From Symbiodinium natans (lineage: Eukaryota; Sar; Dinophyceae; Suessiales; Symbiodiniaceae): a stretch of DNA of 64,000 nucleotides. Each line of letters opens with the position of its first letter. Within the stretch, counting starts at the first letter, position 1. Below the pieces are notes generated by a model. That model worked only from the letters and a program-made list of their open reading frames with translations. It was not told where the DNA came from and searched no databases. The stretch lies in assembly GCA_905221605.1 (NCBI GenBank), contig CAJNDS010000765.1, forward strand, positions 1 through 64,000. Reading direction: 5' to 3'. The position numbers and the translations under genes are program-made. Below, piece after piece: positions 5,774 to 51,600 of this stretch.

Positions 5774-8700
5774 CTAAAGTGCTTTCGTCGGCAAATCCGA
5801 CACGTTGTCTCCCGTGCCCACGGGAATCACCTCAAGGAGTTTCTCCTGAGTCTTTTGCTGCAGCCACAGCAACTTCCCGTCTATGTGCCGCGTTCGGCCT
5901 ACCCCCTGACGATTGCCAAGGGATCTGGCGGCAGCATTGTCGCATAGGCACGACAACTTCACATCAAGGTCTGGGCACACGTGGCATATGCAGTTTTGCA
6001 ACAGGATGGCGGTGGCGCTGCCTGCAACAAGCGAGTTATACTCGGCTTCACACGATGACAGGCTTATAACCTTTTGCGTGTGAGAGCTTGAATACAGCAG
6101 TTGGCCATCCCATACCACGCAACAAGCGGACACGCTGCGGCGTGTGCGTTTGTCTCCACTCCAGTCGCTGTCTGAGAACATTTCGAGCACTGAGGTTTTG
6201 TGCTCAGACACACGGTTGCACACCAGCCCCTTTCCCAAGGTTGGCTTTGAAAGCCCGATCACATGTGACCGATGGGAACTCACATAGCTCGTGAGGTGCC
6301 TTAGCAGTTTCCAGCACCCTTGCGTAGGCTTGTGTGCACGGGTCGCGAGATACCGGATGCCGAACTGAGATGCCAGCAAATCAACGCTCAGATACATGAG
6401 TATCCCCAAGGCAGATCTGTAGCGCGTCGCCGTCTCCGGATCAAGCTCTGGGTCTGGCTCAGAATCAGTTGGCAATCCCCCAGTTGGGAACGGTGCTGCC
6501 TTGGACCTCGCCTTTGCACCTGATAAACCCGTTACTTGAAGAAGTTTGTCCAAGTACTTAACGTCAGGCTCTACAACCAAAAGCTCAGGGCTCACAAGGA
6601 CGTGGCGCCTCTTCAGAAAAGTTACTTCTTCTCCTACTGAACGGATCCAATCAACCGAAACTTTGAATTTGCTTTTCAGGTGCCTCTCTAGGTCCTCCAA
6701 GCGTTTCACAGGTCCTGTGCACAGCATGTCGTCGACGTGCACCATGCCTGCCCCGGCTGGCTTTGGAATTCTGAACAAGACAGGCTGTTCGGCAAGCGGC
6801 TCTGCCTCAACAGCTGTTTTGATTTCCTGCATGAAATCCCGAAACCAGGTAGCCGACCCGTCTCTCTGCCCCGGCAGCATGCGTAGTAGCCTGAACCACT
6901 GGCCATTCACTTTGGTCAGGGTTTCATGCTCTTGCTTGCACTGGAGAAAAGCGTCTGAAACGTCAAGGCTCATCAGTGCCCATCCTTCGTGGAAGTGGCG
7001 AACGAAGAGGGCCGGTATGATGCGCAGCATGCACTGTGTCGTGGTCGGGGCAAAGAGATGCTGTCTCTCTGGATCCAAATGTGCAAACTCTCTTGCGACT
7101 AACCTGGATCTCCTCAGCCACTTCTTTTCGCCACCCAAAGTTTTAGCACGCCAGCTGCGTACATACTTGGATGACAACGTCCTGTGGCCTGGCTGCCACG
7201 ATTGCATTTGCTCAAGCACACTGCTGCCCAGGAGGCGTGCAAGTTCGAATGCGTCCGCTGCAGCATCAATTTCTGCTTGCTCAGATGCACTGCACTGTGG
7301 CTCGACTTCGCTGAAAGGCTTGATCAAGATTGAAGGGATGTCAAGGTCAGAACCAGGCTGTTCTGCCCACTCACTTTGATTGTCATCCTGGTCTTCGCAA
7401 TCAAGAAATTGCTCTGCACTTTCGTCTACCAACTCAATGGATTCATCAAGATGGAACATTTCTGCATCATGTGCACTAACTTGCAAAGCATCAAGCCTCA
7501 GCTTCTTCCGGGCTGGTGCATCCCCGCCTGTGTGCTCAGCGGCATGCCTCACGACTCCTGGTGGCAACATGTCCTCTGCTTGGTCCACGCTCGCCATAGG
7601 AGAATCTAGGGGGGCGACCCCTATTGGTGTTTCAGCCTGTGGCGGCTGAAGCGGTGTTGAGCTCATGGGCGTAGGCGGCTCAGGTGTGTATGCAGCTGGC
7701 ATGCGTGGTGGTGGTGGCACAAGCTCCGAAAGCATGGCATCGTCAGGCAACAAGTGTTCTGGAAAGGGCATGGGACGCTCTGATGCTCCCTGCTGCGACG
7801 GCACTTCGGCCACTTGCTCATGTGCCGCCTCTCCTGCCTCTTCCCCGCCTGCGCTCAACGCCTCTGCCTGAGTCTTCTGTTTGCGGGCTTGGCCAACTTG
7901 TCCTGCAAGGAACGACGCCTGTGTCCACGGCATGTCTACCAGACTGGCACACATTGTCGCTAGATATTGCTTAGGCAACCTGCGGATGGATCTGGAAGAT
8001 AGCATGTAACCCCCTTCAGTGACTCCAAAATGCAAGTCTGAAACCGGAAGTTTCCCTAGCCAAAGCATTTTGCACCATCTAGCTTTTCCTTTTATGGAAC
8101 TTTTGACACGGGCAAACACTGTCTCCCCAAAACACACCAATTTGCCTAGGTACGGCCGCCCATTTATCACGTGAAAAGCACTTAGATCATTTTGCCTAGA
8201 CATCCGCATGTGCAACCACGCGGCGTGGCGCCAAGCATAGGCGTGCATCGGGTGGCTGGACCCGATGGTGGTCTCTGCCCGCTCTTCGAATTGGTCCAAG
8301 ATGCATCCTGCCAATTGTCTGATGCCGTCTATGCTCTGCTCGGCCTCGTTGCCCTGATGATCACTCGCCTCCGTCTGCTCAAGATGGGTCTGGAGGCCCA
8401 TTTTGCTGCGGAAGGCCTTGATGCCTCGTTGCAGGGCCAGGCAGGCCGGCTCTGAGTCTGACCTTATGGTGCATGTTTGGTGGCCACAGTAGTTCAAGAA
8501 TCTGCAAGTTTCGGCAACAAGGTACTTGAAAGCGATTGTGCCACCTTTGGCAGGTGTCGGAATGGCATGGACTGCACCAGTGTGGGAATCCTTCAACACC
8601 AGCACCACAAGTTTCTCTTGCGTGTGACCTTCAAACTGGGCAGGAGTGCGCCTACCAGTACCTTCAAACTGGGCAGGAGTGCGCCTACCAGTATATGCAA

Positions 8701-11700
8701 AATCCATGCAGCACACGGAATCCTCACGCACATCTGGCTTTGCACGCACATGCTTATCTGCTTTAGCTCTGAACCTCACGCAATGCGGGCACCAGTCAGC
8801 ATAAGGCATGTGACTCAACTCGTGGCGCCTCTGCTCCTCAGCCGTGGGTGCTTCCACGAACTTTTGCTCACGCAACGGCTCACGCCCATCTGTCTGGAAC
8901 TCGTGCTGCTGCAGCAGCTCCTGTGTCTTCAGGTGCTGCTCTATCCTCTGGAGGACAGTCTTCTTGCCCCCTGACTTGCCTATCCCAAGGACTTGGCATG
9001 CCGTTCTAAGGGTGCTAAGGGTACAACCCAAGTGAAGCTCTATGCCATTCACGATTACATGCCCTTGAGCTGGCACATCCTCGGCTTGAACAAGTGGTCC
9101 AACGCCTCCACCATCATCACCAGTAGCAACATTTTCATCGTGCTCATCATGCTCTTCAAAATTCATTGCATCATCTGGCACATCAGGAAAATCATCATCA
9201 GGCGGTGCTGCTGAAGGCATGGCATTGGGCACACGAGAGAACAAGCTGTCGATGTTCACGGGATGCACAGACCCGATGGTGATGGTCTGACGGTTCACCG
9301 GAGGGGCAATCTCGCAATCTGCTTGATCAAGATTTTCCACAAGGCTGTTGACCTCGATCACTTGCCAGCCTGTGGGTCTCTGCTGCAGTGTCGTCCTGTA
9401 TGCCACCCCTTTGTGCCCAAGTGGGACTGTCACATCAAGGAAGTTTGTGGTATAATCTCTACGGGCAAAGATGCCGGGCTGAACCTCGACAAACTTATCC
9501 GGCAGGCTTAACCAAACATCCCCAACCGTTAGCGCCATCACAGCTCTGTCGGCCTCGTGATTAGTACACACTGATACATTCATGATTGTTCCAGTGGCGT
9601 GCAAGGAATTGTGGCGATAATGCAATGGTACACGGATCGCATTGTCCGGGCTCGTCAAGAAAGGGGTATTGTCGGTATGTATCAGATTCCAACCCCGTTT
9701 GAGGAGTTTCCCCACACTAAACAACGGTTGCGTCACACTCCCCAACAACCACCTTTCCTTGAACTGAACCCCATCTATGTCAAGCACTGCCGTCCTCATT
9801 TGTGATCCCGAAATCACACTTCCCTGAGCATCACGATAGCTGTTTGTCGTGATGCCGCCAGCAACCCCAACATGGCGCCAGGATTCGGGCAGGCACGACT
9901 CGTCCGAGCCTGAGTCTATCACTAGCTCTTTTGTGGTTCCTGGCATGTCAGAGGTCACTGCGCGCACGCACAGCGCATCGCGCGCATCAGCACTCTTCTG
10001 AGTCATCAATGCGTGCCTTATCCTTGCCGGGACATGCTTGCTGACTTCACACTTGCGCTTGGTGTTGCATTCGGCGGCAAAGTTGCTCGCATGGGTGCTC
10101 AAACACGCAGCTGCACAGGCAGGCCTGTCACTAGGCATCAAGTTGATACCACATAGTTCGCCCTCAGGCACGGTCCAGGCACCATCTTCATCTGCATATG
10201 ACATGTCAAACATCTCAACGCTGGTGCTTGGAACAACAGGCTGCAACTCGGCTGGCTTAGGTGAAGTCACCGCTGCATTTGCAACCGATTGGCACAAACT
10301 CACAAAGCTCAACCAACTCGGGTCAGGGTCGTCCTGGCGGGATTGCCCATCACACATGAGCACTGCATTGATGCGACCCTCTTGGCAAATGGTGAACTCC
10401 GGGCTTGTCATGTCAATCGCAACACGAGCAACACGATGCTGGGTGGTGGCAGTGCTTGGCGCAACTTGAGAAACTGAAGGTCCGAGCGTGCTCACAGTCG
10501 TTGCAGCGTCGGAAGGTTGCCCAGATGGTGCATTCTGGACTGCTTGGACACGCGGTGCACTCCAACACTCACTGGCATAATGACCCTTCTTACCGCAATT
10601 ATGACATGTTCCCTTTGCACGCTGGCCTTTACCTGTGCCTGGGCTTTCTTGGTGGGGACCTTTGCCTTTGGGCTGCCTCTCCTTGCCTTTGCCTTTGGGA
10701 TGCCTCTCCTTGCCTTTGCCTTTGGGCTGCCTCTCCTTGCCTTTGCCTTTGGGATGTTTCTCCTTCCCTTTGCCTTTGGGATGCCTCTCCTTGTCCCTGC
10801 GGATCAACGCATCCACTTCCATGGGCACTGGCGATTGCTCTTGCCCAGCACTTGGCGCCATGGGCACCACACCCAAAGCCTGGTGCATCTTCGCTGAGGT
10901 CCAGGAGGTGGTCGTCACCTCATAGCCCAGGACGTAATCCCTGATGCTCTGGTATGTGCTAGCTTCAGACATTTGCAGCTGCACATGTTGTCTCAGCGCA
11001 TGAGGCAGGCAACGGACGAGTGTCCCTAGCATCACGTGCTCACCTGGCGAGTTGTTGGTGACCTTGCGATATTCTTCAGCTACCCTTTCTAACCCCTGAA
11101 TTTGTTCACGAAGGCTCCGGTCTTTCGTGAAGGTTGGCAGGCTCATCAAGGCGTTCAGAAGGGCTAAACCTCGGAACTTGGTTCGTGGTGCAAACGTGTT
11201 TGTCAGGACTCTCCAAACCTCCAGGCCACTCTTGTCAGACACTTGGCGAAGGATGGCTTTAGGCTTTGCACGCAGAACACTGGCAAGGATTGCAAACAGC
11301 CGCTGGGATCTCGCGACGCGGGCTGCGTCGGCTGTGCTCAGATCCACTGGCGTGTTGAGGTTTTCCTCCACGATCTTGAGGTCCGTTTCGTACTCATGAT
11401 CTGCGAAGACTAGCCAGGTTCGAAAGCTATGACTCCATTCAGCCCATTGAGCAACATCATTGTCATGCACAGCACTGCCAAACTCCGTAGGACGGTTCAA
11501 GATCTTATTTGCATCGGCAAACCCCGCTGTACCACTCGAACTTGAGGGCCGGGCAACGGCTGCTTGAGCAGCCTGTGCTGCAGCTTGGGCCGTCTCGACC
11601 ATCTGCGCCATCAGCATCTGCATCTGGGCCATGTCAAGCTGTCCTGCTGCAGGGCTGCCTGGGAGGAACGGGTTTCCACTGCCACTGGCTGTGGCTTCCT

Positions 11701-11740
11701 GAGGCAACACGGGCAACTGCTGGCCTTGCGAGGACTCCAT
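5774..11740 (-). CDS. gag-pol: Copia Gag-Pol polyprotein, element 1
   Basis: 1988 residues from the first ATG (11738-11740); the frame is open a little further upstream without an ATG. Domains in order: Gag with a Gln/Ala-rich start, Lys/Gly repeats (about 313-367) and a CCHC knuckle CHNCGKKGHYASEC (379-392); aspartic protease with DSG at D609; an acidic linker and a SAP-like helix-extension-helix motif (about 902-937, TLSTLRTACQVLGIGKSGGK); integrase with an HHCC-type region (HELSHMPYADWCPHC) and a D1013/D1095/E1134 triad; reverse transcriptase with LDVSDAF (D1593) and VHVDD (D1670/D1671) in place of the usual YVDD; RNase H with SDSDW (D1859), SSCEAEY and CDNAAA. It supplies the proteins for cytoplasmic reverse transcription and nuclear integration. 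An in-frame 33-bp tandem duplication lies just after integrase D1013 and may impair that enzyme. Confidence 0.93.
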   Translation of the reverse strand: MESSQGQQLPVLPQEATASGSGNPFLPGSPAAGQLDMAQMQMLMAQMVETAQAAAQAAQAAVARPSSSSGTAGFADANKILNRPTEFGSAVHDNDVAQWAEWSHSFRTWLVFADHEYETDLKIVEENLNTPVDLSTADAARVARSQRLFAILASVLRAKPKAILRQVSDKSGLEVWRVLTNTFAPRTKFRGLALLNALMSLPTFTKDRSLREQIQGLERVAEEYRKVTNNSPGEHVMLGTLVRCLPHALRQHVQLQMSEASTYQSIRDYVLGYEVTTTSWTSAKMHQALGVVPMAPSAGQEQSPVPMEVDALIRRDKERHPKGKGKEKHPKGKGKERQPKGKGKERHPKGKGKERQPKGKGPHQESPGTGKGQRAKGTCHNCGKKGHYASECWSAPRVQAVQNAPSGQPSDAATTVSTLGPSVSQVAPSTATTQHRVARVAIDMTSPEFTICQEGRINAVLMCDGQSRQDDPDPSWLSFVSLCQSVANAAVTSPKPAELQPVVPSTSVEMFDMSYADEDGAWTVPEGELCGINLMPSDRPACAAACLSTHASNFAAECNTKRKCEVSKHVPARIRHALMTQKSADARDALCVRAVTSDMPGTTKELVIDSGSDESCLPESWRHVGVAGGITTNSYRDAQGSVISGSQMRTAVLDIDGVQFKERWLLGSVTQPLFSVGKLLKRGWNLIHTDNTPFLTSPDNAIRVPLHYRHNSLHATGTIMNVSVCTNHEADRAVMALTVGDVWLSLPDKFVEVQPGIFARRDYTTNFLDVTVPLGHKGVAYRTTLQQRPTGWQVIEVNSLVENLDQADCEIAPPVNRQTITIGSVHPVNIDSLFSRVPNAMPSAAPPDDDFPDVPDDAMNFEEHDEHDENVATGDDGGGVGPLVQAEDVPAQGHVIVNGIELHLGCTLSTLRTACQVLGIGKSGGKKTVLQRIEQHLKTQELLQQHEFQTDGREPLREQKFVEAPTAEEQRRHELSHMPYADWCPHCVRFRAKADKHVRAKPDVREDSVCCMDFAYTGRRTPAQFEGTGRRTPAQFEGHTQEKLVVLVLKDSHTGAVHAIPTPAKGGTIAFKYLVAETCRFLNYCGHQTCTIRSDSEPACLALQRGIKAFRSKMGLQTHLEQTEASDHQGNEAEQSIDGIRQLAGCILDQFEERAETTIGSSHPMHAYAWRHAAWLHMRMSRQNDLSAFHVINGRPYLGKLVCFGETVFARVKSSIKGKARWCKMLWLGKLPVSDLHFGVTEGGYMLSSRSIRRLPKQYLATMCASLVDMPWTQASFLAGQVGQARKQKTQAEALSAGGEEAGEAAHEQVAEVPSQQGASERPMPFPEHLLPDDAMLSELVPPPPRMPAAYTPEPPTPMSSTPLQPPQAETPIGVAPLDSPMASVDQAEDMLPPGVVRHAAEHTGGDAPARKKLRLDALQVSAHDAEMFHLDESIELVDESAEQFLDCEDQDDNQSEWAEQPGSDLDIPSILIKPFSEVEPQCSASEQAEIDAAADAFELARLLGSSVLEQMQSWQPGHRTLSSKYVRSWRAKTLGGEKKWLRRSRLVAREFAHLDPERQHLFAPTTTQCMLRIIPALFVRHFHEGWALMSLDVSDAFLQCKQEHETLTKVNGQWFRLLRMLPGQRDGSATWFRDFMQEIKTAVEAEPLAEQPVLFRIPKPAGAGMVHVDDMLCTGPVKRLEDLERHLKSKFKVSVDWIRSVGEEVTFLKRRHVLVSPELLVVEPDVKYLDKLLQVTGLSGAKARSKAAPFPTGGLPTDSEPDPELDPETATRYRSALGILMYLSVDLLASQFGIRYLATRAHKPTQGCWKLLRHLTSYVSSHRSHVIGLSKPTLGKGLVCNRVSEHKTSVLEMFSDSDWSGDKRTRRSVSACCVVWDGQLLYSSSHTQKVISLSSCEAEYNSLVAGSATAILLQNCICHVCPDLDVKLSCLCDNAAARSLGNRQGVGRTRHIDGKLLWLQQKTQEKLLEVIPVGTGDNVSDLPTKAL
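8628..8693 (-). repeat. 33-bp tandem duplication inside integrase
   Basis: Two adjacent copies, 8628-8660 and 8661-8693, identical by reading. They add the residues TGRRTPAQFEG a second time, directly after the first catalytic aspartate strand of element 1 integrase. The frame is kept. Confidence 0.9.
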
Positions 11741-11768
11741 TGGGACTGTGTTTAAGCAGAAAAAATGC

Positions 11769-12266
11769 TCACTCCAAATCAATCACAGAATCGGAATGCT
11801 TCAATGCACGATCAAAGACTTGGCTCGCACTGGAGGATCTCTGGCGACGCTCGGAACCTTGCCTGCCCACTGAAGACACGGGACACACCGAAGAACTGGA
11901 AGGCTCACAATCGGTGGCACGCAACAATGAACGAAGGTCGGCGTTGGCTGCTTCAAGATCCCTCTCAAACAACGAACTCTCTTCTTCTGGATGCAAAGAT
12001 GCAAGCTGCACACTCTCGGGCACACAGCTGTCGGATACTTCCTCAGCCCCGAAAACAATGAAAGCCTCTCTGAGATCTCCCTGGCTCAAGCACTTAAGTC
12101 CAAACTGCCACACCTCAGGCACGGAGTGCAGTTGCTCAAGACGCTGCTCGAACGCTTCCTGATACCTGTAAAGGATCTTACCCCACGAAACCTGTGACCT
12201 GTTCTCTGGCTTGGGCCTCCGGATCAGTTGCTCCACGTAGAAGCTGTGCAGCCTCTCCCGTTTTGC
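11769..12266 (-). CDS. Small ORF upstream of Gag in copia element 1
   Basis: An open frame of about 165 codons between the primer-binding site and Gag, in a different frame from Gag, ending 29 bp before the Gag ATG. It contains no ATG, so it would need a non-AUG start or splicing from the leader. The product is mixed polar with a likely helical acidic part (SSLFERDLEAANADLRSLL) and a Ser-rich tail. I do not recognise a family. It could be a real leader protein, a displaced N-terminus of Gag after a frameshift, or chance. Confidence 0.3.
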   Translation of the reverse strand, partial: AKRERLHSFYVEQLIRRPKPENRSQVSWGKILYRYQEAFEQRLEQLHSVPEVWQFGLKCLSQGDLREAFIVFGAEEVSDSCVPESVQLASLHPEEESSLFERDLEAANADLRSLLRATDCEPSSSSVCPVSSVGRQGSERRQRSSSASQVFDRALKHSDSVIDLE

Positions 12267-18482: not shown

Positions 18483-19192
18483 ACAGGGGAGGCCCACACA
18501 CGCGAAGCCAGAATTGCCTAGATTTTTCGACCCCAGATTTGGAGTCGCGTAAACTGGCAAACATGTGTACAGTACAGGAACGACTTGGTCTCCTAGGACT
18601 TGCTGAAAATCAAGCCCCAAAAAACAATCTCGAAACCAAACAAGTTGGCCTGATGTGGCCTCAAACCCACACGGTCTTGCTTTGTTGCGACACGTTTGTG
18701 GCCTGTTGTGGCCTGACGTGGCCTGAAAACCACACGTTTGTGGCCTGTTGTGGCCGACGTGGCCTCAAAAACACACGTTTGTGGCCTGTTGTGGCCTGAT
18801 GTGGCCTCAAAAACACACGTTTGTGGCCTGTTGTGGCCTTGTTGTGGCCTCACGGCGCATTTTTCCCCGGAAAAATGCAATTTGTGGCCATGGGGACTCG
18901 GGACCCTATAATACTATTGAAAGGGTCCCCACGCACAGCAGACGTAGGGTAATGAGGCCAGATCCGAAGACCGACCAGAATTTTAATCCAGGTTTTTTCC
19001 CAAGTCGCTTATCTTCTAAACTGAACATTGTTACAAGTGTTCAAAGACGACCTATGCACTGTTCAAAACGCGGCGCCGAAGAAAAGTTGGCAGACATAGA
19101 AATCACGTGGGGCCCCATGGCTTCACCACTCCTCCGCTGCCCGTCACTGCATCACTTTCTCTCACTCCGTCGTCCTCGCTTCCTCACTCTTT

Positions 19193-19272
<80 letters not shown>

Positions 19273-21105
19273 CTCACTTTCATTCTCACTCTCACTCTCA
19301 CTCTCGCTCTCGCTCTCGCTCTCACTCTCATCCTCACACACTCACAGACACTCTGTCACTCTCTCACACGCAAGCACTTGCTGCTCCAAAACATACGTCT
19401 GTTTGGCTCTGGCAAAGACCAGGGTCGATGGTGCTAAATTCAAAATGCTGTATAGACAGGTCTGACCCATCAACGGCGCGTTAACTGCCGCAAAAACTGA
19501 GATTGGAGACAGCGCCAAAATATGTCCAAGCATGCGCGAATGCACTTGTGGCATCCGTTCACCAGCCCCACAACCTGACCATTGTTAGAACCCCAATGAG
19601 GGTGCTCGGCAACAGCTGATTCGCCAGGAGCACAAGCCGTTCCTGCACAGTAGGTATCCTCGCTGTTCAAAGCCCAAGCCTGCCAAAAGCTTTCATTCTG
19701 CAATGTCCAGCAGACGACTCTGCGCAACAGCAGAAAACGTTGAGCCACGTTGGTCAACTTCCCGAGCTTGAAGGGCGCCTCCTATCCACAGAAAACACCG
19801 ACAAAGACCTGCAGCTCAACTGGCAAACCAGCAGAATTGCCAGGACGAAGCCCAAGTTCCGGGGAAGTCGGGCGACCCCGCTTTCAGGGCCGCAAAACAC
19901 AAGCAATTCTGGCTTCGCGAGGACGGGCCTCCACAGTTGCAGTTCTGCCTCACTGCAGCATTACAAAGACGAGTGTGCAGCTGCTTCGGACAAGCCCCCG
20001 TGCGCTCAGCGCGACGCTGCCCAAAGTGACTAGAACAAGGGCAGGTGCGCAGCCAACGAGATCCGGTTGCTTGAGCCCACAGGCTCAAATTCGGTGCCAA
20101 AAAATGGGGCCGTCTCGCGGTCCCAAAAATGGTGCCGCGAAATGGACCCAGCTCCCGCAGCACAATTTGGAACTGAATTGGGGGCGTGAAACTGCGACCC
20201 CAAAATTGGGGCCGTTTGGCGACCCCAGTTTTGGGCTCGGAGGTCGTGGTTCTCAGTAATTGATCTTTCCACGTTAAGTGCTTGTCTGTGGGCCAGAGTC
20301 GCCTGAGTGTAGCAGTCTGGAAAGCGCGGGATTGAGCCCAAAAATAGAAGAAGGCAGCTTTCTTGTGGAAGCGATCAACATGAAAGAAACGTGCACAGGG
20401 GAGGCCCACACACGCGAAGCCAGAATTGCCTAGATTTTTCGACCCCAGATTTGGAGTCGCGTAAACTGGCAAACATGTGTACAGTACAGGAACGACTTGG
20501 TCTCCTAGGACTTGCTGAAAATCAAGCCCCAAAAAACAATCTCGAAACCAAACAAGTTGGCCTGATGTGGCCTCAAACCCACACGGTCTTGCTTTGTTGC
20601 GACACGTTTGTGGCCTGTTGTGGCCTGACGTGGCCTGAAAACCACACGTTTGTGGCCTGTTGTGGCCTGACGTGGCCTCAAAAACACACGTTTGTGGCCT
20701 GTTGTGGCCTGATGTGGCCTCAAAAACACACGTTTGTGGCCTGTTGTGGCCTTGTTGTGGCCTCACGGCGCATTTTTCCCCGGAAAAATGCAATTTGTGG
20801 CCATGGGGACTCGGGACCCTATAATACTATTGAAAGGGTCCCCACGCACAGCAGACGTAGGGTAATGAGGCCAGATCCGAAGACCGACCAGAATTTTAAT
20901 CCAGGTTTTTTCCCAAGTCGCTTATCTTCTAAACTGAACATTGTTACAAGTGTTCAAAGACGACCTATGCACTGTTCAAAACGCGGCGCCGAAGAAAAGT
21001 TGGCAGACATAGAAATCACGTGGGGCCCCATGGCTTCACCACTCCTCCGCTGCCCGTCACTGCATCACTTTCTCTCACTCCGTCGTCCTCGCTTCCTCAC
21101 TCTTT

Positions 21106-21185
<80 letters not shown>

Positions 21186-23041
21186 CTCACTTTCATTCTC
21201 ACTCTCACTCTCACTCTCGCTCTCGCTCTCACTCTCATCCTCACACACTCACAGACACTCTGTCACTCTCTCACACGCAAGCACTTGCTGCTCCAAAACA
21301 TACGTCTGTTTGGCTCTGGCAAAGACCAGGGTCGATGGTGCTAAATTCAAAATGCTGTATAGACAGGTCTGACCCATCAACGGCGCGTTAACTGCCGCAA
21401 AAACTGAGATTGGAGACAGCGCCAAAATATGTCCAAGCATGCGCGAATGCACTTGTGGCATCCGTTCACCAGCCCCACAACCTGACCATTGTTAGAACCC
21501 CAATGAGGGTGCTCGGCAACAGCTGATTCGCTAGGAGCACAAGCCGTTCCTGTACAGTAGGTATCCTCGCTGTTCAAAGCCCAAGCCTGCCAAAAGCTTT
21601 CATTCTGCAATGTCCAGCAGACGACTCTGCGCAACAGCAGAAAACGTTGAGCCACGTTGGTCAACTTCCCGAGCTTGAAGGGCGCCTCCTATCCACAGAA
21701 AACACCGACAAAGACCTGCAGCTCAACTGGCGGACCAGCAGAATTGCCAGGACGAAGCCCAAGTTCCGGGGAAGTCGGGCGACCCCGCTTTCAGGGCCGC
21801 AAAACACAAGCAATTCTGGCTTCGCGAGGACGGGCCTCCACAGTTGCAGTTCTGCCTCACTGCAGCATTACAAAGACGAGTGTGCAGCTGCTTCGGACAA
21901 GCCCCCGTGCGCTCAGCGCGACGCTGCCCAAAGTGACTAGAACAAGGGCAGGTGCGCAGCCAACGAGATCCGGTTGCTTGAGCCCACAGGCTCAAATTCG
22001 GTGCCAAAAAATGGGGCCGTCTCGCGGTCCCAAAAATGGTGCCGCGAAATGGACCCAGCTCCCGCAGCACAATTTGGAACTGAATTGGGGGCGTGAAACT
22101 GCGACCCCAAAATTGGGGCCGTTTGGCGACCCCAGTTTTGGGCTCGGAGGTCGTGGTTCTCAGTAATTGATCTTTCCACGTTAAGTGCTTGTCTGTGGGC
22201 CAGAGTCGCCTGAGTGTAGCAGTCTGGAAAGCGCGGGATTGAGCCCAAAAATAGAAGAAGGCAGCTTTCTTGTGGAAGCGATCAACATGAAAGAAACGTG
22301 CACAGGGGAGGCCCACACACGCGAAGCCAGAATTGCCTAGATTTTTCGACCCCAGATTTGGAGTCGCGTAAACTGGCAAACATGTGTACAGTACAGGAAC
22401 GACTTGGTCTCCTAGGACTTGCTGAAAATCAAGCCCCAAAAAACAATCTCGAAACCAAACAAGTTGGCCTGATGTGGCCTCAAACCCACACGGTCTTGCT
22501 TTGTTGCGACACGTTTGTGGCCTGTTGTGGCCTGACGTGGCCTGAAAACCACACGTTTGTGGCCTGTTGTGGCCTGACGTGGCCTCAAAAACACACGTTT
22601 GTGGCCTGTTGTGGCCTGATGTGGCCTCAAAAACACACGTTTGTGGCCTGTTGTGGCCTTGTTGTGGCCTCACGGCGTATTTTTCCCCGGAAAAATGCAT
22701 TTGTGGCCATGGGGACTCGGGACCCTATAATACTATTGAAAGGGTCCCCACGCACAGCAGACGTAGGGTAATGAGGCCAGATCCGAAGACCGACCAGAAT
22801 TTTAATCCAGGTTTTTTCCCAAGTCGCTTATCTTCTAAACTGAACATTGTTACAAGTGTTCAAAGACGACCTATGCACTGTTCAAAACGCGGCGCCGAAG
22901 AAAAGTTGGCAGACATAGAAATCACGTGGGGCCCCATGGCTTCACCACTCCTCCGCTGCCCGTCACTGCATCACTTTCTCTCACTCCGTCGTCCTCGCTT
23001 CCTCACTCTTTCTCTCACTCTCACTCTCACTCTCACTCACT

Positions 23042-23089
<48 letters not shown>

Positions 23090-24631
23090 CTCACTTTCAT
23101 TCTCACTCTCACTCTCACTCTCGCTCTCGCTCTCACTCTCATCCTCACACACTCACAGACACTCTGTCACTCTCTCACACGCAAGCACTTGCTGCTCCAA
23201 AACATACGTCTGTTTGGCTCTGGCAAAGACCAGGGTCGATGGTGCTAAATTCAAAATGCTGTATAGACAGGTCTGACCCATCAACGGCGCGTTAACTGCC
23301 GCAAAAACTGAGATTGGAGACAGCGCCAAAATATGTCCAAGCATGCGCGAATGCACTTGTGGCATCCGTTCACCAGCCCCACAACCTGACCATTGTTAGA
23401 ACCCCAATGAGGGTGCTCGGCAACAGCTGATTCGCCAGGAGCACAAGCCGTTCCTGCACAGTAGGTATCCTCGCTGTTCAAAGCCCAAGCCTGCCAAAAG
23501 CTTTCATTCTGCAATGTCCAGCAGACGACTCTGCGCAACAGCAGAAAACGTTGAGCCACGTTGGTCAACTTCCCGAGCTTGAAGGGCGCCTCCTATCCAC
23601 AGAAAACACCGACAAAGACCTGCAGCTCAACTGGCAAACCAGCGGAATTGCCAGGACGAAGGCCCAAGTTCCGGGGAAGTCGGGCGACCCCGCTTTCAGG
23701 GCCGCAAAACACAAGCAATTCTGGCTTCGCGAGGACGGGCCTCCACAGTTGCAGTTCTGCCTCACTGCAGCATTACAAAGACGAGTGTGCAGCTGCTTCG
23801 GACAAGCCCCCGTGCGCTCAGCGCGACGCTGCCCAAAGTGACTAGAACAAGGGCAGGTGCGCAGCCAACGAGATCCGGTTGCTTGAGCCCACAGGCTCAA
23901 ATTCGGTGCCAAAAAATGGGGCCGTCTCGCGGTCCCAAAAATGGTGCCGCGAAATGGACCCAGCTCCCGCAGCACAATTTGGAACTGAATTGGGGGCGTG
24001 AAACTGCGACCCCAAAATTGGGGCCGTTTGGCGACCCCAGTTTTGGGCTCGGAGGTCGTGGTTCTCAGTAATTGATCTTTCCACGTTAAGTGCTTGTCTG
24101 TGGGCCAGAGTCGCCTGAGTGTAGCAGTCTGGAAAGCGCGGGATTGAGCCCAAAAATAGAAGAAGGCAGCTTTCTTGTGGAAGCGATCAACATGAAAGAA
24201 ACGTGCACAGCACACGTTTGTGGCCTGTTGTGGCCTGATGTGGCCTCAAAAACACACGTTTGTGGCCTGTTGTGGCCTTGTTGTGGCCTCACGGCGCATT
24301 TTTCCCCGGAAAAATGCAATTTGTGGCCATGGGGACTCGGGACCCTATAATACTATTGAAAGGGTCCCCACGCACAGCAGACGTAGGGTAATGAGGCCAG
24401 ATCCGAAGACCGACCAGAATTTTAATCCAGGTTTTTTCCCAAGTCGCTTATCTTCTAAACTGAACATTGTTACAAGTGTTCAAAGACGACCTATGCACTG
24501 TTCAAAACGCGGCGCCGAAGAAAAGTTGGCAGACATAGAAATCACGTGGGGCCCCATGGCTTCACCACTCCTCCGCTGCCCGTCACTGCATCACTTTCTC
24601 TCACTCCGTCGTCCTCGCTTCCTCACTCTTT

Positions 24632-24711
<80 letters not shown>

Positions 24712-25366
24712 CTCACTTTCATTCTCACTCTCACTCTCACTCTCGCGCTCGCTCTCACTCTCATCCTCACACACTCACAGACACTCTGTCACTCTCTCAC
24801 ACGCAAGCACTTGCTGCTCCAAAACATACGTCTGTTTGGCTCTGGCAAAGACCAGGGTCGATGGTGCTAAATTCAAAATGCTGTATAGACAGGTCTGACC
24901 CATCAACGGCGCGTTACGCAAAAACTGAGATTGGAGACAGCGCCAAAATATGTCCAAGCATGCGCGAATGCACTTGTGGCATCCGTTCAGCCCCACAACT
25001 TGACCATTGTTAGAACCCCAATGAGGGTGCTCGGCAACAGCGATTCGCCAGGAGCACAAGCCGTTCCTGCACAGTAGGTTTCCTCGCTGTTCAAAGCCCA
25101 AGCCTGCCAAAAGCTTTCATTCTGCAATGGCCAGCAGACGACTCTGCGCAACAGCAGAAAACGTTGAGCCACGTTGGTCAACTTCCCGAGCTTGAAGGGC
25201 GCCTCCTATCCACAGAAAACACCGACAAAGACCTGCAGCTCAACTGGCAAACCAGCGGAATTGCCAGGACGAAGGCCCAAGTTCCGGGGAAGTCGGGCGA
25301 CTCCGCTTTCAGGGCCGCAAAACACAAAGCAATTCTGGCTTCGCGAGGACAGACCTCCACAGCAGA
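18483..25366. repeat. Tandem array of a ~1.9-kb unit, 3.6 copies
   Basis: Units begin at ACAGGGGAGGCCCACAC: 18483, 20395, 22302, and 24207, where the fourth copy has lost about 290 bp at its start and its end at about 25366. Spacings are 1912, 1907 and 1905 bp. Copies 2 and 3 are nearly identical, so the array was homogenised recently. Each unit holds 42-bp subrepeats (TTTGTGGCCTGTTGTGGCC), a hairpin GCATTTTTCC/GGAAAAATGC, an inverted pair GGGACCCT/AGGGTCCC around TATAATACTATT, a TCTCAC microsatellite and a GGGG/CCCC-rich block. Open frames up to 325 codons exist on both strands but show only low-complexity or repeat-derived sequence. I read it as satellite-like or an unknown element rather than genes. 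Confidence 0.9.
19186..19345. repeat. TCTCAC microsatellite in tandem unit 1
   Basis: A simple-sequence tract of CTCTCA/CTTTCA repeats. The same tract recurs at about 21099-21250, 23006-23160 and 24628-24780 in the other units, with small length changes. It produces false Leu-Thr and Arg-Val frames. Confidence 0.9.
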
Positions 25367-42600: not shown

Positions 42601-45600
42601 TGCGCTGCCGGGCAGCTGCTGGTCTTCGGCGGGAATGGTCCGGGGGCCCGGCCCGGGGCGGCGCCATTGCAAGAGGAGAGAGATTTCCCCCGCAGCAATG
42701 TGGGAGGTTGCCGAAGCCCCATGCTGTGCGCGATGCTGAGGTGCAGGTGGCCGCTTGGGCGACCTCTGGATGTTCGATCTCGAGGCAGAAGGAGAGAGGG
42801 AGCATGGGAGAACTGCAGTCAGGCGGTGAGTGGTTTCTGTTTTTAAGTTGTTTGTTGGGCTTGTGTTTGGCAACGGGGCTCATGGACCTAGAACTGGCAG
42901 CAACTCATTCGGCGCCCTGCGGGTCGTGTGGTCCGTGTGGGGATGTGGAAGGCGCCTTGAAGACACGTCAACATATGCCAACCGGCGCATCTTGATCGCC
43001 CGAACTCCGGCCTGCGTTCCAGGAATGCCCTTAATTCCACTATACTCGTACCAATCCTAGAACGCCGCTACCAGATTTTGGATAATTGGCATACGTCATG
43101 GGTTTTGTGACTGAATGTTGACCGACTGCGTTTTTGTTGGACATAAGTGCTATGATCATGGTGCCATGTAGTGTCCAGTAGGGATACAGAGCACCGCTGA
43201 GGATCTGTTCTTATCAGTGTGACAACTGAAAGTCACTCAGCACATAATCGAGAAGTGTACCCAGAGCCACTTGAATATTTGTGGCTCAAGACGCTGAGCA
43301 GAAAAAGGGTTAGCGCGATGGCTGCTTGATGGGCGGAAGGGGCAATTACGCTATCAGTGACGTCAGCCGAGCCCCTCATTGATCAGGCATGTCGGGACAG
43401 GCGAGTGATTATTCAATAGGTTATGAGTCCAACGCAATGGTTCCCACTGTTGCGTTGGGCACTGCCAACTCCGCTGATTCTCATTCTGTCCTGGCACGAG
43501 TGCGTCAAAGTATGGAGTTTGTCATTCCTCCAGAGGTCCTGAATCAGTTTTCCACATGGGGAGGCTCCCAGAATCAACAAGACACAGCTGTGATGTTGCA
43601 AGAGCTCTTTCGAAGGACGGAGGTTCTCGGACGAGCTGCTCAACAGATTCCTTTGTCGTTGTCTGAACAGGTTGCGACTGATGTGGAGATGAGAATGCAA
43701 GGCTTCACATCCAGACTGGATGACATGGCATCCCACCTGAGGAATCTGGAGATGGCAAGTGATCACGCGTTTCGTGATGTTCGGCAGGCGCAGGCCCGCC
43801 TAAAGCATGACGTTGACGAGCTGGCACAGAGTCAGTTGGAGCTGCGAAAGCAGATGGCCCAAATCGTCGACCGACTTGATGCAATCGAGTTGGTTGTAGT
43901 AAAGGACGTGGAGCAATTGACAATTCGAATGTCTCTGTGTCAGGAATCCCTAGAGGAAAACCTAAGCTCTGCAAGTCAGCTTGAAGATAGGTTGGATGCT
44001 TGTCAAGACATGATGAACGAGCAAGCCAATCTTTTGGATGATCTGCAGTGCAAATGGCGCCAGTTTCAGGAGCCGCCACAAACTCCGCCGAGGTCAGCCG
44101 AACAATTTCCGCTATCTCCTGAGGTGCTTTCTTGTAGTCCCCGGCTCACTTCAGCAGGCAGAGATGAGCTAAGTCACAGATTCACGTTGCATGACGCATC
44201 TCCTTGGACGTGGACGGCTGGTCAGCACTCACAGGGTGATGCTGACTTTCATCCGTGGTTTGATGCGCGGTTGCTGCGTGAATGTCCACCCCTGCCAGGT
44301 GCCACAGGCGCGCAAGGTATGCAGGTGCCTTCAGGTGTGCAGGTGCAGGCAGGTGCCACAGGCGCGCAAGGTATGCAGGTGCCTTCAGGCGCGCAAGGTA
44401 TGCAGGTGCCTTCAGGTGTGCAGGTGCAGGCAGGTGCCACAGGCGCGCAAGGTATGCAGGTGCCTTCAGGCGCGCAAGGTATGCAGGTGCCTTCAGGTAT
44501 ACAGGTGCAGGCAGGTGCCACAGGCGCGCCAGGTCTGCAGGTGCCTTCAGGCGTGCAGGTGCAGGCAGTGCCTTCAGGTAAACAGGTGCAGGCAGGTGCC
44601 ACAGGCGCGCAAGGTATGCAGGTGCCTTCAGGCGTGCAGGTGCAGGCAGTGCCTTCAGGTGTGCAGGTGCATGCAGGTGCCCCAGGCGCGCAAGGTATGC
44701 AGGTGCCTTCAGGTGCGCAGGCGCAGGCAAGTGCTGCAGATGCACGAGGTATGCAGGTGCCTTCCGGTGTGGAAGTCCCACCAGGTCTGCAGGCGTTCAC
44801 AGGTGACCTGCGTATGCAAGGTATGCAGGTGCCTTCGTGTGTGCAGCCGCCTTTCGGAACGCTTGTGCAAGCAAGAGCGGGCCATACTCACGGGGCGAGT
44901 GCTGCTGGACCATTGCCAACCCTTACAGCTGAATCTGTAATTACTTCGCACTGGTCACAGGTGGCCCCGACAGAACCCGTGCATCAAATGACAGAGACAG
45001 CTCCCCAAACGTCGTTCAGACGACAAGACCAAGCCCCGTCAGACACGAGTGATGGTATGTCCACACGGCCTCTAGGGTTCCAGTCATTGCAGCAGGAAGC
45101 AGAGCAAGCTTCTCTCCATGCCGCGACGGCGGCAGCGTTCGAGGCCAAGGGTCAAGATGACTGGAAGTGTCTCCGTCAGGCTCCGCAGCTCTTGATTGCA
45201 GCTGAGAGAACGTGGGAGAAATCGTTAGCTCTAGATTTGTGGTTGCAACAAATGGGTGTGTGTGCCAACGCTGTGAGCCCAGCGATGGCTCAGCACTGGG
45301 AGTGGGTTCTGAAGACCGCTCAAGATTTGCATAAACGCACTCAGAGTCTCAGTGTAGCTGATAGGGTGTTGTTGTCTGATGCGTTTGAGTCTGGGGTGAG
45401 CGGCGTCCGAATCCCAGATGGACAAGCCGTGCACGAGAACAAGCTGTTGTTGACACTCATGAATGTGTTGCCAAGCGACATTAAGCGACCGTTATTGGAG
45501 GGAAGGCCAAACTCTTCACCCTCAAGTGTGGAGCTTCTGCATCAGACATACGAGTGGTTTAGTCCGGGGGGTAAAGAAGATTGTCGTTCACTCCTTGATT

Positions 45601-48600
45601 TCGTTCGGAGACCAGGCAGCAACTCATCTAGTGTCAGTGGGTGTCGGGCGCATCTGCGGTTGTGGAGGACGGCCAGGTCGAGACTGAATCGTCTTGGGAT
45701 GTCGCAACCGCCGGCTACGGAGCTTCTGATTGCCCTTGAGGAAGTTCTAGCGCCAATGGAGCGCAAGTTTGAGACACTTCGTTTTGCTCTTCAAAATGCT
45801 CGCTTGTCGCACGGTGTCCGACAGCCAACTGCGTCCGGGATTGCTGAGTTTGAAAAGCTTGCAGAACAAGAGTTGTTACTGCTAGATCAGGATGAGCGGG
45901 TTAGAGTGGCATCTTCCACCGATGTCCGGGTGGCTTCAGCGGCTGACGCAGTCAAGGTCAAACCATGCCACTTCTTCAACAAGCCTGGCGGGTGCAATCG
46001 CAATCCTTGTCCATTTGCGCATATCCCACGGGAGAAGTCCACGCCTGACAAGCCATCACCAAAGCCTAAACCAAAGCCAAAGCCTAAAGCAAAGCCAAAG
46101 CCCAGCCCAAAAAGGGAAGACGGCCAGCACCCTAATGCCAAACCTAAGGCAGATCCAAAGGCCAAAGCTAAAGCAGCAGCAGCCAAGGCCGACAAGCCGG
46201 TTGTAGAGATCATCACGTCAATGATGCAAGTGTCGCCTGAAGCAGCAACGGCTATCAATGCACTTGGTCCTGATAACGGTTCAGGGGGTTTGCCGTGGGT
46301 GTTAGTTGACTCCGGTGCAAATCAGATTCTTCGTCCTTGGAATGAGCAAGCGGAGAAAGATCTGGAAGGTGCGGCGCCTCTCTTGGTGACTCTGGCTAGT
46401 GGAGAGCAGAGGCAAGGCTGGAGAACAGTCGAAGGTGAAGTGATGTTGCCAAAGCAATCGGGCAATGATCATCAGCATCACCCGTGGATCTTGCCGGTCA
46501 CTCGGTTGGTTAAGGATCTTGGCTATCAAGTAGTATGGTCAGAATCAGGAGCCGAGTTGATATCACCCCACGGAAAGCACATTCAGTGTCACTCGTATCA
46601 TGATTTGCCTTACATCAGGTGGAAAGATTTCATCCCGATTCGCAGACAGCTTGCTCACAAGTACCGCTCACGGAATGCCACAGTGAATCAAGCAGATGCG
46701 AGCTCTCCTTGTGAGTGCGACTCTGTAGATGCAGAATGCGTTCTGCAAGATGCTTCTCTGTGGTTAGGGGACTGCGAGTCAAGCATCGCTTCCGTCCGCA
46801 AAGTCCAAATGCAGGCGGTTGAAAGCCTGGCAAGAACTCTTCTGCCCCAGTGTGAGGTCTCAAAGCCATCTGAGCTTGGAGATTTCTTGGAAATGGTGCT
46901 TCGCGAATTGCCCTACAAGTCGCGTCATGTTCGTCGCGATGCTACAGTGCTTGACGGGGGTAGGTGCAACAGCATTGTGTTTGGGTTGTATCAGCATGGA
47001 GGCTTCATCGGCCTCACAACGGCCACGTATCAACTGCCAGAAACAGCCGAATTCATCAATGCTGTTCTCGCACGACAACTGCCTGAAAACGCTCGTTGGA
47101 CTTCGGTTCAGATTGGGATGAACACCAGGGCCAGCCCGCATCGAGACACTCGCAACACCGGTCCCTCATACCTCAGATCGTTTGGTGAGTTCAGCGGGGG
47201 AAGACTGTGGGTTCAAGATTCGGGAGGTGATGTCGATGCAGTGATTCATGGAGTGTCAATGACAGGAAGCATGCATTCTACATATGGTCATTGGTTGAAG
47301 TTGGATGCCAAGGGACTGTACCATGCTGTGGAGCAATTTGTGGGCACACGTGTATCAGTCAGCGTGTACGTGACAGGATCGGGTAAACTCGTGACATCTG
47401 AGATGGGACAGGTCCTGGAACGCTTGAAATTCCGAGTCCCAGAGACCCATGCAGGAAGTCACAATCCCTCACGCGTGGCCACAGTGCAGGACGTCGTTCA
47501 GACAGCCCCAGAAGTCACGCGCATAGCATTCAGTCTGATTTTTCCAAGTCAAGTGCCCTGTTCCCAGATCTGCAAATCAGCTGTCCCGCTTGAGGAGGAG
47601 CCACCTGTCAAGATCTGCTTCGGGCCATTGGCCGGACCTTCAGGACAGAAGGATGAGCATGCACGATGCGGACACACTCCAGCCCGCCCAGACTGCGAAG
47701 CATGCCAAGAGTCGCTTGGGTTACGACGTATGCACCGTAAGGTCAGCATTGATACAAGGACAACGGCAGTGCTTAGTTTGGACGTCACTGGACCACATCC
47801 CAAAGCGCTGGAAACCGAAGCTACATATGCGCTCGTTGCTGTGGCAGCTTTGAGTGACGGACTGAACCTCGTCTACGTAGTCCCCTTGAAAGACAAGACG
47901 TCGTTGAGCGTGTTGCCGGGCACGATGAAAGTCTTGTCAATGCTGAGATCACTTTACGGTGGATTTCTGCCCATTGCACAGATACATTCAGATTGTGAGG
48001 GCGAATTCTTGAGCACAGCTTTTCGTCGGGCAATGCTAGACGCAGGTCTCAAACAGACTACGACACAGCCGGGGGATCCCAGCCAGAACGGACGAACAGA
48101 AAGGTATATTGGTTTGACCAAGACCCGGACAATCGCCATGCTACAGGAAGGCAGACTGCCGCTTACTTTGTGGTCACATGTGATGGTGCATGCAGCCTTC
48201 CTTCTTCGCCAGTCTGCGCTAAGCCGCGACATTCCGGCTAAGTATCCTGCACCAGGTGATTGTGTTCTCGTTCCGGCAAAGAGCGAAGCAGTTCGTGAAG
48301 GTGGGGATTTCATTCCCAAGGTGAGGTATGGAGTGTTTCTCGGGGTTGACGAGTCAATTCCCGATGGAGCTGTGGTCGCAGTCCGTGAAGGTTCGCACAC
48401 CTCTTTCCTGCATGTGTCTGGTCCAAAGAAGTGGCGTTCACCTGGGATAAAGCGTTGGCGAATGCATGCACATCCCAACGATGGCTCAAAGGCTGTCTGG
48501 ATTTCCAGCGAGGGAGATGTGGTGTGGACAGCCCCACACCGTGAAACCATTTTGTCGTTTGAGGAGCGCAGGCCAGCTGACAGTACAAGTGATGTGGGCG

Positions 48601-51600
48601 ACTATGTCCGGAAAGGTTTTCCCGGCTGGGACGCTCAACGACACTACAACCTGTTCACACACTCTTGTGAGTCGCCTGATGAGCATGGTGAGGTCACGGA
48701 TGTGCCGCAGGGTGGCGTCGAGGTATCATGGTTCGAAATTGCTGGATTCCAGGCTGGATTGGTCAAGGAAGCTGCGAACGGGGATGATGTTTGGAAAGTG
48801 TGCGGTGATTATCTTGTCCGTAGGCATCTCACACCGAGGGTTGGGATGTTTGTCCCAGTTGAGGACGACATGTGTCCTTCTCCGAACACAACCTTATGTC
48901 CACCGAGGGTGACGGTTGTGTTAACTGAGGAGGGCCAGAGGCAAGTACTGTTTGACAGATGGGTGGAAGGAGTGCCGGATAGGCCAGCCTACTCAGATCA
49001 CCGCAAGTGGCGAGGTGTCACGTTATTCCGCATCATCAAATCAGAAGCACCCAGGACAGAGGTCGCTGAGGGAGCTGAGGCGGTCCCCGCAGCCATGGTG
49101 CAGGCATTTCAACCTCAAGAACCAAAGTCCAAAGACAGATACTGGCTCCCCGATCCCGACGCGCAGGTGCAAATGCATCGCATGGACCAGGTAGCGGAGT
49201 GTTTGGAAACAGATGCTCTTGTGAACGTTTCTGTTGATCCGCGGGAAGCTGAGAGGGCTGATGAGTCGGAAAGGGCTCGCTGGGAAGATGGTATACGTCA
49301 AGAGCTTGGGAATCTGGACGCAATGGAGGTCATGGAGCGAGTGACTGAAGAGGATCTGAGAAAGCGGAGGGCAAATGGCGAAAAAATCCCCAGGCCTTTG
49401 CCCAGCAAACTGGTCCTAGTCAAGAAGCCCCAGCCGGAAGCTGCAGAGGGTGAGGGAGGCTACAAGTACAAAGCCAGAATCGTGGTTTGTGGAAACATGC
49501 AGGCCGAAGCTGCAAAAGAAATCGGCAATCGCAGCGAGGTTCCTGATGCTTTCTTCACTCGATGCTTGTTCACACTGGCGTTGCTGAGGTGGTTCAGCTT
49601 CACCATCCTCGATGTTAATGCTGCCTTCTTATACGCTGGTCTCCCAGAAGGTGACCCAGCTATAGTGGTTGCGCCGCCGGCGCTTCTCCGACGTTGGAAG
49701 CTCGCAGGTCAAACAGAGATGTGGGTGCTGAAGAAAGCCCTATATGGGCTCAGGGCTTCGCCGCGCCAGTGGGCAAGGGAACGCAACAACACCGTGCGCA
49801 ACAAGAAAATCAGGTTGTCCGATGTCGAGGTTGCAATGTTTGCGCCCGCAGACGTTCATGAACACGTGTGGGTCCTCAAGTCCACAAAGCGAGGGATTGT
49901 CGCGTATGCTTTGTTTTACGTGGATGACATTTTGGTTGCAGCTCAGGCCGATGTGTTGCATCTTGTCAGAAGGGCCATCAAGGAATGGTGGAAGGTGAAA
50001 GATCAAGGCACACTCATCAATCCGAAGGATCCCATGTATCAGCATGACTTGCACGACGAGTTGAATCCTCAAGCCGAGCTAGGGTTTTTGGGGATGAGGC
50101 TTTCCTTTGTAGGGGAGTTTTTGGCATGTCACCAAATTCCTTACCTCAAGAGTTGTCTTGGGGAGCGCAAGTTTGGCGACATAAAAGGTTCGCAAAGTTT
50201 GCCAGCTGTCACAGAAGGAGGCGAGCCTGAGTTCGAGGATCGCAACTGTGACAGATATCGGGAGCTTGTGAGAGCATGCCAGAAAGAGGTTGGAGCGTTG
50301 CTGTGGGCGTCACAGCGCTCACGCCCGGACATCGCTGCAGTGATAGGGGTGTTAGGCTCGCAATTGGTCGTTCAACCAACTAAGGTTTTGGGGTGGTGCC
50401 ATCAGGTTTGGAGATATTTGGCTAACACTGTCGAAATCAAGTTGATGTTTCGCCAGAGTGATGCAAGTGCGATTTCCCTGAGCGTGTCTGCCGATGCTAG
50501 CTTCGCAGCAGGCGGTGATAGAAGCCGCAGCGGAGTGGCAGCCCTATTATGCGGCCAGCTCGTGCAGTGGTCGTCGGTTCGTCAGAGTCTCGCAGCTGCG
50601 AGCGCAGTGGAAGCCGAAATCCAAGCCGCCGGACTGGGATCGGTGACAGCAATAGCCGTGCTGAACCTTGTTCGAGGGCTGCTGGATGAAGGCTCGGTGA
50701 TTGAAACCGAGCTTTTGTCTGACAACACAGGATGCATAGCAAACATAACGCATGCAGTGACATCGTGGAGGAATCGTCACTACTGCGTGAAGGCAGCTGC
50801 TTTGAGAGACCAGCTTCAGGAACACAGCATTGCTTTGCGCTATTGTTCGGGCAAGCTGATCTTAGCAGATGCTCTAACAAAGATTTTGGGAAGACAAGCC
50901 CTAGAGATCGCACGGGCCGCGTTGAGACTAGCTTGACGTCAGTTTTTTGCTTTGCTTGGCACTCTGACCCCTCCTGAGGAGGAGTGTTGGACATAAGTGC
51001 TATGATCATGGTGCCATGTAGTGTCCAGTAGGGATACAGAGCACCGCTGAGGATCTGTTCTTATCAGTGTGACAACTGAAAGTCACTCAGCACATAATCG
51101 AGAAGTGTACCCAGAGCCACTTGAATATTTGTGGCTCAAGACGCTGAGCAGAAAAAGGGTTAGCGCGATGGCTGCTTGATGGGCGGAAGGGGCAATTACG
51201 CTATCAGTGACGTCAGCCGAGCCCCTCATTGATCAGGCATGTCGGGACAGGCGAGTGATTATTCAATAGTTTTTCATGGAGCATCATGGAGCATCATGTG
51301 CTTTGAGCCGATCTGCGCTGCGCTGCGTCTCGTGGGTGAATGTGCGTTTCATGAACAGTATTTAGCAGCGGTGGTAGTAACTGGTATACTGTATACTCGT
51401 ATAGTAGTAGCAGAAGGTCGCCCATGGGGAGAGTAGGGATGGACACATGAAGGAAGACCGAAGGGTAGACTTCATGAGGGGGCAGGGTCGTGTAAACATC
51501 AAGTTAAGCGTCGAGTAAAACATCATGTTAAGCGTCCAGTGCGCATCCAGTCCAAAGGCACATGCAGGGGACATTCCGCCATGCATTTTCCGGCCGCTGC

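Follow-up and report, generated by a model that had tools for sequence, protein, structure and literature searches.

A Ty1/copia element with an oxygenase-like domain

The stretch of Symbiodinium natans contig CAJNDS010000765.1 analysed here (64,000 nucleotides, hereafter the window) contains a complete Ty1/copia retrotransposon, element 2, at positions 43130 to 51273. A segment of about 190 residues in its Gag-Pol polyprotein (residues 1169-1355; 46887-47447, plus strand) is read here as a TET/JBP-like 2-oxoglutarate/Fe(II) oxygenase domain. The element is bounded by GTTTT target-site duplications (43130-43134 and 51269-51273) and by a pair of 284-bp long terminal repeats (LTRs; 43135-43418 and 50985-51268), the second of which is preceded by the purine-rich GAGGAGGAG. 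The two LTRs are identical, which suggests a recent insertion and an intact, young element. A single open frame of 2517 amino acids plus a stop (43383-50936), on the plus strand like the LTRs, has its first methionine codon at 43389, inside the 5' LTR. It exhibits the aspartic protease motif DSGAN (residues 976-980, 46308-46322), an integrase region (47703-48362, a span chosen by hand as a search seed) with a weak Pfam rve match (E-value = 0.0096, residues 1521-1566), and a reverse transcriptase (RT; 49392-50012, RVT_2 E-value = 3.3e-11) with the YVDD motif at 49917-49928. The LTRs, the target duplication, the protease-integrase-RT order in one frame and the RVT_2 match place the element in Ty1/copia, the rve match being below the Pfam cut-off and the protease motif recognised by eye.

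The domain lies after the protease motif and ahead of the integrase and RT. Two predicted iron ligands, H1253 and D1255, are found with N1258 in the HxDxxN motif HRDTRN (47139-47156), followed by a GGRLW motif (G1272-W1276, 47196-47210), the second predicted iron-ligand histidine H1314 (47322-47324) and the predicted 2-oxoglutarate-binding arginine R1323 (47349-47351), with a Tyr/Phe position six residues on. The domain thus exhibits the residues of the 2-oxoglutarate/Fe(II) superfamily, the HxD...H triad and the arginine. Residues are numbered along the stop-to-stop frame, in which H1253, D1255, N1258, H1314 and R1323 span nucleotides 47139-47351. A preliminary description of this DNA had proposed an oxygenase-like domain between protease and integrase from HRD, NTGPSYLRSFGEFSGGRLWV, a later histidine and an arginine nine residues on. 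All of these, NTGPSYLRSFGEFSGGRLWV included, are present in the frame 43383-50936, and the placement holds. The residues had been correctly identified, under numbers two lower than ours, which fits a count from the methionine at residue 3. The oxygenase-like reading is supported by the evidence below, which points to a more specific, TET/JBP-like domain.

Recurrence and conservation in the genome

A 162-residue stretch of the domain matches 149 other places in the genome (E-value = 5.9e-23 to 1.9e-13, 28-39% identity), 150 matches having been scored, window copy included, of 1454 first-look candidates. No stop occurs inside the match at any of the 150 places, and many of them belong to frames longer than 2000 residues. 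The other large frame of the window, which runs on the minus strand (5774-11782) and looks copia-like on visual inspection, exhibits no match to the domain profile, so the domain is not present in every such element.

We picked 60 loci by hand for diversity from the genome match lists; the domain is present in all 60 as in the window. The 61 copies form 37 groups at 60% identity, with representatives less than 60% identical, and because the copies were chosen for matching the domain, the conservation they show depends in part on how they were selected. Column by column in the alignment, H1253, D1255, N1258, G1273 and H1314 are invariant in 37/37 groups, R1323 is retained wherever its column has a letter (36 of 36 groups), and W1276 of GGRLW is found in 35 of 37; an asparagine at the strict D+3 spacing is found in 36 of 37. 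The residue at R+6 is tyrosine or phenylalanine, never arginine, wherever there is a letter (35/35 groups, 57/57 copies). Among all 61 copies the first histidine is kept in 60 (one change to glutamine), the aspartate in 61, the second histidine in 60 (one change to proline) and the arginine in the 59 with a letter. A chance motif is ruled out by the 149 other stop-free matches together with this conservation through 37 groups; that the domain is real and conserved is virtually certain.

The ratio of nonsynonymous to synonymous substitution rates (dN/dS) is between 0.04 and 0.49 across 28 close pairs of relatives (at least 120 codons, identity 0.6-0.99, dS < 1.5, at least 10 differences), the pairs being non-independent in that they share copies. 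Judged from these ratios, the domain is under purifying selection between relatives. The preliminary description had set conserved H, D, H and R positions, purifying selection and a predicted double-stranded beta-helix as the tests of its proposal. The first two are borne out within this genome, the window copy taking part in none of the dN/dS pairs, and the third by the model described below.

Distances between domains follow those between the RTs of the same elements (Mantel r = 0.82 for 18 elements, a value raised by near-copies among them; 0/2000 permutations as high). The simplest reading of these sequence distances is that the domain has shared its history with the element for a long time. 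The RT tree joins the window copy with loci L024 and L027 (99), a grouping that is absent from the domain tree but not firmly contradicted by it.

Family assignment

The AlphaFold model of the domain (mean predicted local distance difference test score, pLDDT, 86.2; predicted template modelling score, pTM, 0.83) is a double-stranded beta-helix. A Foldseek search with it returned 104 PDB matches at E-value ≤ 0.001, of which the 50 listed are nucleic-acid 2-oxoglutarate oxygenases (AlkB, ALKBH, TET, FTO) and Ofd2, the identity of the 3rz entries among them being our assumption. For both models that we compared, the solved structure ranked first is NgTET1, and ALKBH5 and TET2 are among those that follow; for the second model, 6n1f (ALKBH5) is within 1 Z unit of NgTET1.

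At the sequence level, Pfam Tet_JBP (PF12851) matches 16 of 38 family members at E-value ≤ 1 (best 6.9e-7), far more than other families such as 2OG-FeII_Oxy_3 (two members) and Asp_Arg_Hydrox (one); the 38 match nine Pfam families in all, none of them an AlkB family. A search of all PDB sequences with the family profile gave six hits, the first five being CcTet and TET2 with the HxD, H and R aligned. TET2 also has the asparagine at D+3, and both proteins have Tyr/Phe at R+6, as does the dinoflagellate domain, an ad hoc criterion with a reference set of these two proteins. Elsewhere the matches were few: six NCBIfam families with one member each (best E-value = 0.035, one Fe2+-dependent dioxygenase at 0.17), and, from searches of proteins with the family alignment, one match among 2647 candidates and six at E-value ≤ 1 among 5789, all unnamed. 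PHROGs matches are weak and odd and were left unused (phrog_274, DNA endonuclease V, in 8 of 38 members, E-value = 4e-4; for the window copy phrog_10746, of unknown function, E-value = 0.048). Searched as a single sequence against Pfam, the PDB and 5.8 billion proteins, the window copy found no relative but its own protein.

Several observations weigh against a TET/JBP assignment. The Foldseek query-normalised TM-scores are modest (0.36-0.53 among the 50 matches listed), and the Z-scores of NgTET1 (12.4) and ALKBH5 (12.3) are tied, a difference below 1 counting as a tie. Of ten members examined in detail for Tet_JBP, nine match below the curated cut-off of 34.9 bits (best 29.1) and one does not match, so that formal Pfam membership is lacking; genome-wide, the family matches 27 places at E-value ≤ 1, none over the cut-off (best 1.2e-3), and the same search gives a match below the cut-off in E. 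coli, one of the 14 genomes that served as controls. No Pfam family matches the window copy of the domain, and this copy stands alone in its 60% group and in no dN/dS pair, no fetched copy being near enough. The hits of the PDB sequence search are not significant (E-value = 0.23-1.3), and L020, the best Tet_JBP member, searched alone against the PDB matches fatty-acid-binding proteins only (E-value = 1.6). Finally, CcTet lacks the asparagine at D+3 in the PDB alignment, which also means that this asparagine is not universal in TET/JBP.

On its sequence we call the domain TET/JBP-like, without claiming formal membership of the Pfam family for it. In fold and catalytic layout it resembles NgTET1, TET2 and CcTet, from which it differs in falling below the Pfam cut-off, in its length of about 190 residues and in its position inside a retrotransposon polyprotein. 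We consider it likely to belong to the TET/JBP branch rather than to AlkB. The alternative assignment has a precedent: orchid Ty3/Gypsy elements, likewise LTR retrotransposons with a 2-oxoglutarate/Fe(II) oxygenase, carry an AlkB N6-methyladenosine (m6A) demethylase of ALKBH5-like kind for which RNA demethylation is reported (PMC9289625). By analogy, the domain of element 2 would strip m6A or a similar mark from the element's genomic RNA, guarding it against decay. AlkB proteins bear an RxxxxxR motif (PMC9289625), however, whose second arginine occurs in 0/35 groups and 0/57 copies here; plain AlkB, structurally tied, was rejected on this ground. The Pfam matches likewise favour Tet_JBP over AlkB, and the orchid domain is a separate open reading frame outside Pol, in a Ty3/Gypsy element of a flowering plant (PMC9289625). 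We regard an RNA demethylase as rather unlikely. A prolyl- or lysyl-type protein hydroxylase with Gag, integrase or a host chromatin protein as its substrate is still less probable: NgTET1 heads both structural rankings, ALKBH5 and TET2 being among those that follow, the structural match to prolyl hydroxylase is lower, and Tet_JBP prevails in the Pfam comparison. That a captured oxygenase fold has been kept as a non-catalytic, DNA/RNA-binding or structural module is very improbable, since, although the 2-oxoglutarate oxygenase superfamily includes some catalytically dead proteins and single copies here have lost the first or the second histidine, a binding-only module would have no need for the full catalytic set that is kept across the 37 groups under low dN/dS.

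Proposed activity

The domain is very probably an active 2-oxoglutarate/Fe(II) oxygenase. We assign a probability of about 60% to the reading that it is a TET/JBP-like enzyme oxidising 5-methyl groups of bases in element DNA; a methyl group of a DNA base is its somewhat favoured target. What follows on catalysis, on DNA as substrate, on the base that is modified, on packaging and on any advantage to the element is inferred. H1253, D1255 and H1314 would hold the iron, R1323 would bind 2-oxoglutarate, and N1258 would face the target base, as the equivalent asparagine does in TET. Because the domain lies within Pol, in the interval between protease and integrase, copia biology suggests that the virus-like particle would take it in together with RT and integrase, and that there it would encounter freshly made cDNA of the element ahead of integration or in the course of it. 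There it would hydroxylate 5-methyl groups, converting thymine to 5-hydroxymethyluracil (5-hmU) or 5-methylcytosine to 5-hydroxymethylcytosine, and the modified cDNA may change host silencing or packaging of the new copy. In unmodified particle cDNA thymine would be the one abundant 5-methylated base, 5-methylcytosine arising only after methyltransferase action; thymine would therefore be favoured if the cDNA is the target, and 5-methylcytosine if the enzyme acts after integration. Thymine in particular can be put forward only tentatively.

Multimapping reads and most repeat classes show an enrichment of 5-hmU in Breviolum minutum (PMC11071213), which fits the proposed activity without proving it. 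Telling in the other direction, the signal in that species is strongest on Mavericks, not on copia, and where copia is named, it is for its low accessibility and not for 5-hmU (PMC11071213).

Related elements in the same genome

The position of the domain varies among the 21 stretches compared. It is ahead of the integrase in 13 of them (the window, L009-L011, L017, L018, L020-L023 and L025-L027), the integrase match of L026 being about 2.8 kb away; it follows the RT in six (L013-L016, L019, L028); and in L024 it lies between an integrase-like stretch, recognised by eye, and the RT. Neither integrase nor RT was detected near the domain in L012.

Ten of these elements exhibit a C5-methyltransferase-like segment, upstream of the domain in L009, L018, L020, L022, L023 and L025 and downstream in L013-L016. 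The segment is named after what we take to be C5 motifs: an acidic motif I, SLPC (PC) and E-x-P. An alignment of this conserved segment from seven of the ten (L009:3691-4329, L018:3776-4414, L020:5404-6042, L023:3742-4380, L025:5557-6195, L013:3904-4542 and L015:5619-6257) found no Pfam or PDB relative. An oxygenase and a methyltransferase paired in one element would be notable, if true. The preliminary description had pointed to DNA methyltransferases in dinoflagellate retrotransposons: SymbioLINE-Dnmt and SymbioDIRS-Dnmt3 resemble the present elements in carrying a DNA-base-modifying enzyme and differ in that it is a cytosine methyltransferase, in LINE and DIRS elements and not in copia (PMC5890265).

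All six elements with the domain after the RT also match a Tpt1/KptA RNA 2'-phosphotransferase seed. Pfam PTS_2-RNA is above its cut-off in both elements scanned, L015 (residues 2555-2744, E-value = 9e-10) and L028 (residues 2279-2474, E-value = 8e-21), with the RT upstream in both copia-type polyproteins. Among the better genome matches to Tet_JBP there is also a 1299-residue frame that occurs with equal score in six places of G000 (C908, C1850, C2263, C345, C350 and C606).

Other features of the element and the window

The Gag part of element 2 contains collagen-like tandem repeats (44296-44771), G-rich and in frame with periods of 54 and 81 nucleotides (Pfam Collagen E-value = 5.7e-5, 23.2 bits, under the cut-off of 27.2). 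A weak CCCH-type zinc-finger-like segment (residues 858-881, 45954-46025; zf-CCCH E-value = 0.2, 12.1 bits, cut-off 20.5) stands where copia Gag-Pol proteins usually have a CCHC knuckle. Elsewhere in the window, positions 18483-25327 are occupied by three to four direct repeats spaced about 1.9 kb apart (about 1.6 kb for the last), mostly 88-100% identical and 76% in one part; the arrangement resembles the tandem gene arrays of dinoflagellates. The 21-base sequence that we take to be the dinoflagellate spliced leader has 205 exact matches in the assembly of 759 Mb and none when reversed as a control, in line with a dinoflagellate host.

Significance

A TET/JBP-like domain in a copia Gag-Pol appears to be new as far as we have searched: excerpts of the open-licence PMC literature, outside which subscription papers and Repbase lie, contain no report of one in retrotransposons or in dinoflagellate copia. 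The known cases that we found are the orchid RNA demethylase and the fungal TET+ transposons (KDZ, EnSpm, Helitron and others; PMC12730594). The latter are likewise many-copy mobile elements with a TET/JBP-type oxygenase, but they are DNA transposons and Helitrons, whereas the present carrier is a copia Gag-Pol in a dinoflagellate.

The first report that dinoflagellate DNA is rich in 5-hmU dates from the 1970s (PMC11071213). The excerpts consulted from two papers name no dinoflagellate enzyme for it, one of them giving TET-family enzymes as its likely makers. It is conceivable, if doubtful, that retrotransposons are a major source of the base, a packaged TET/JBP-like thymine hydroxylase marking the cDNA so that new copies integrate with 5-hmU; in the related elements with a methyltransferase-like segment, an oxygenase-methyltransferase pair could write 5-hydroxymethylcytosine likewise. 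A many-copy TET/JBP-like domain, selected between relatives, is a concrete, assayable candidate source of dinoflagellate 5-hmU. Should DNA be its substrate, the element would be a retrotransposon that brings a base oxidase of its own into the particle in which its DNA is synthesised.
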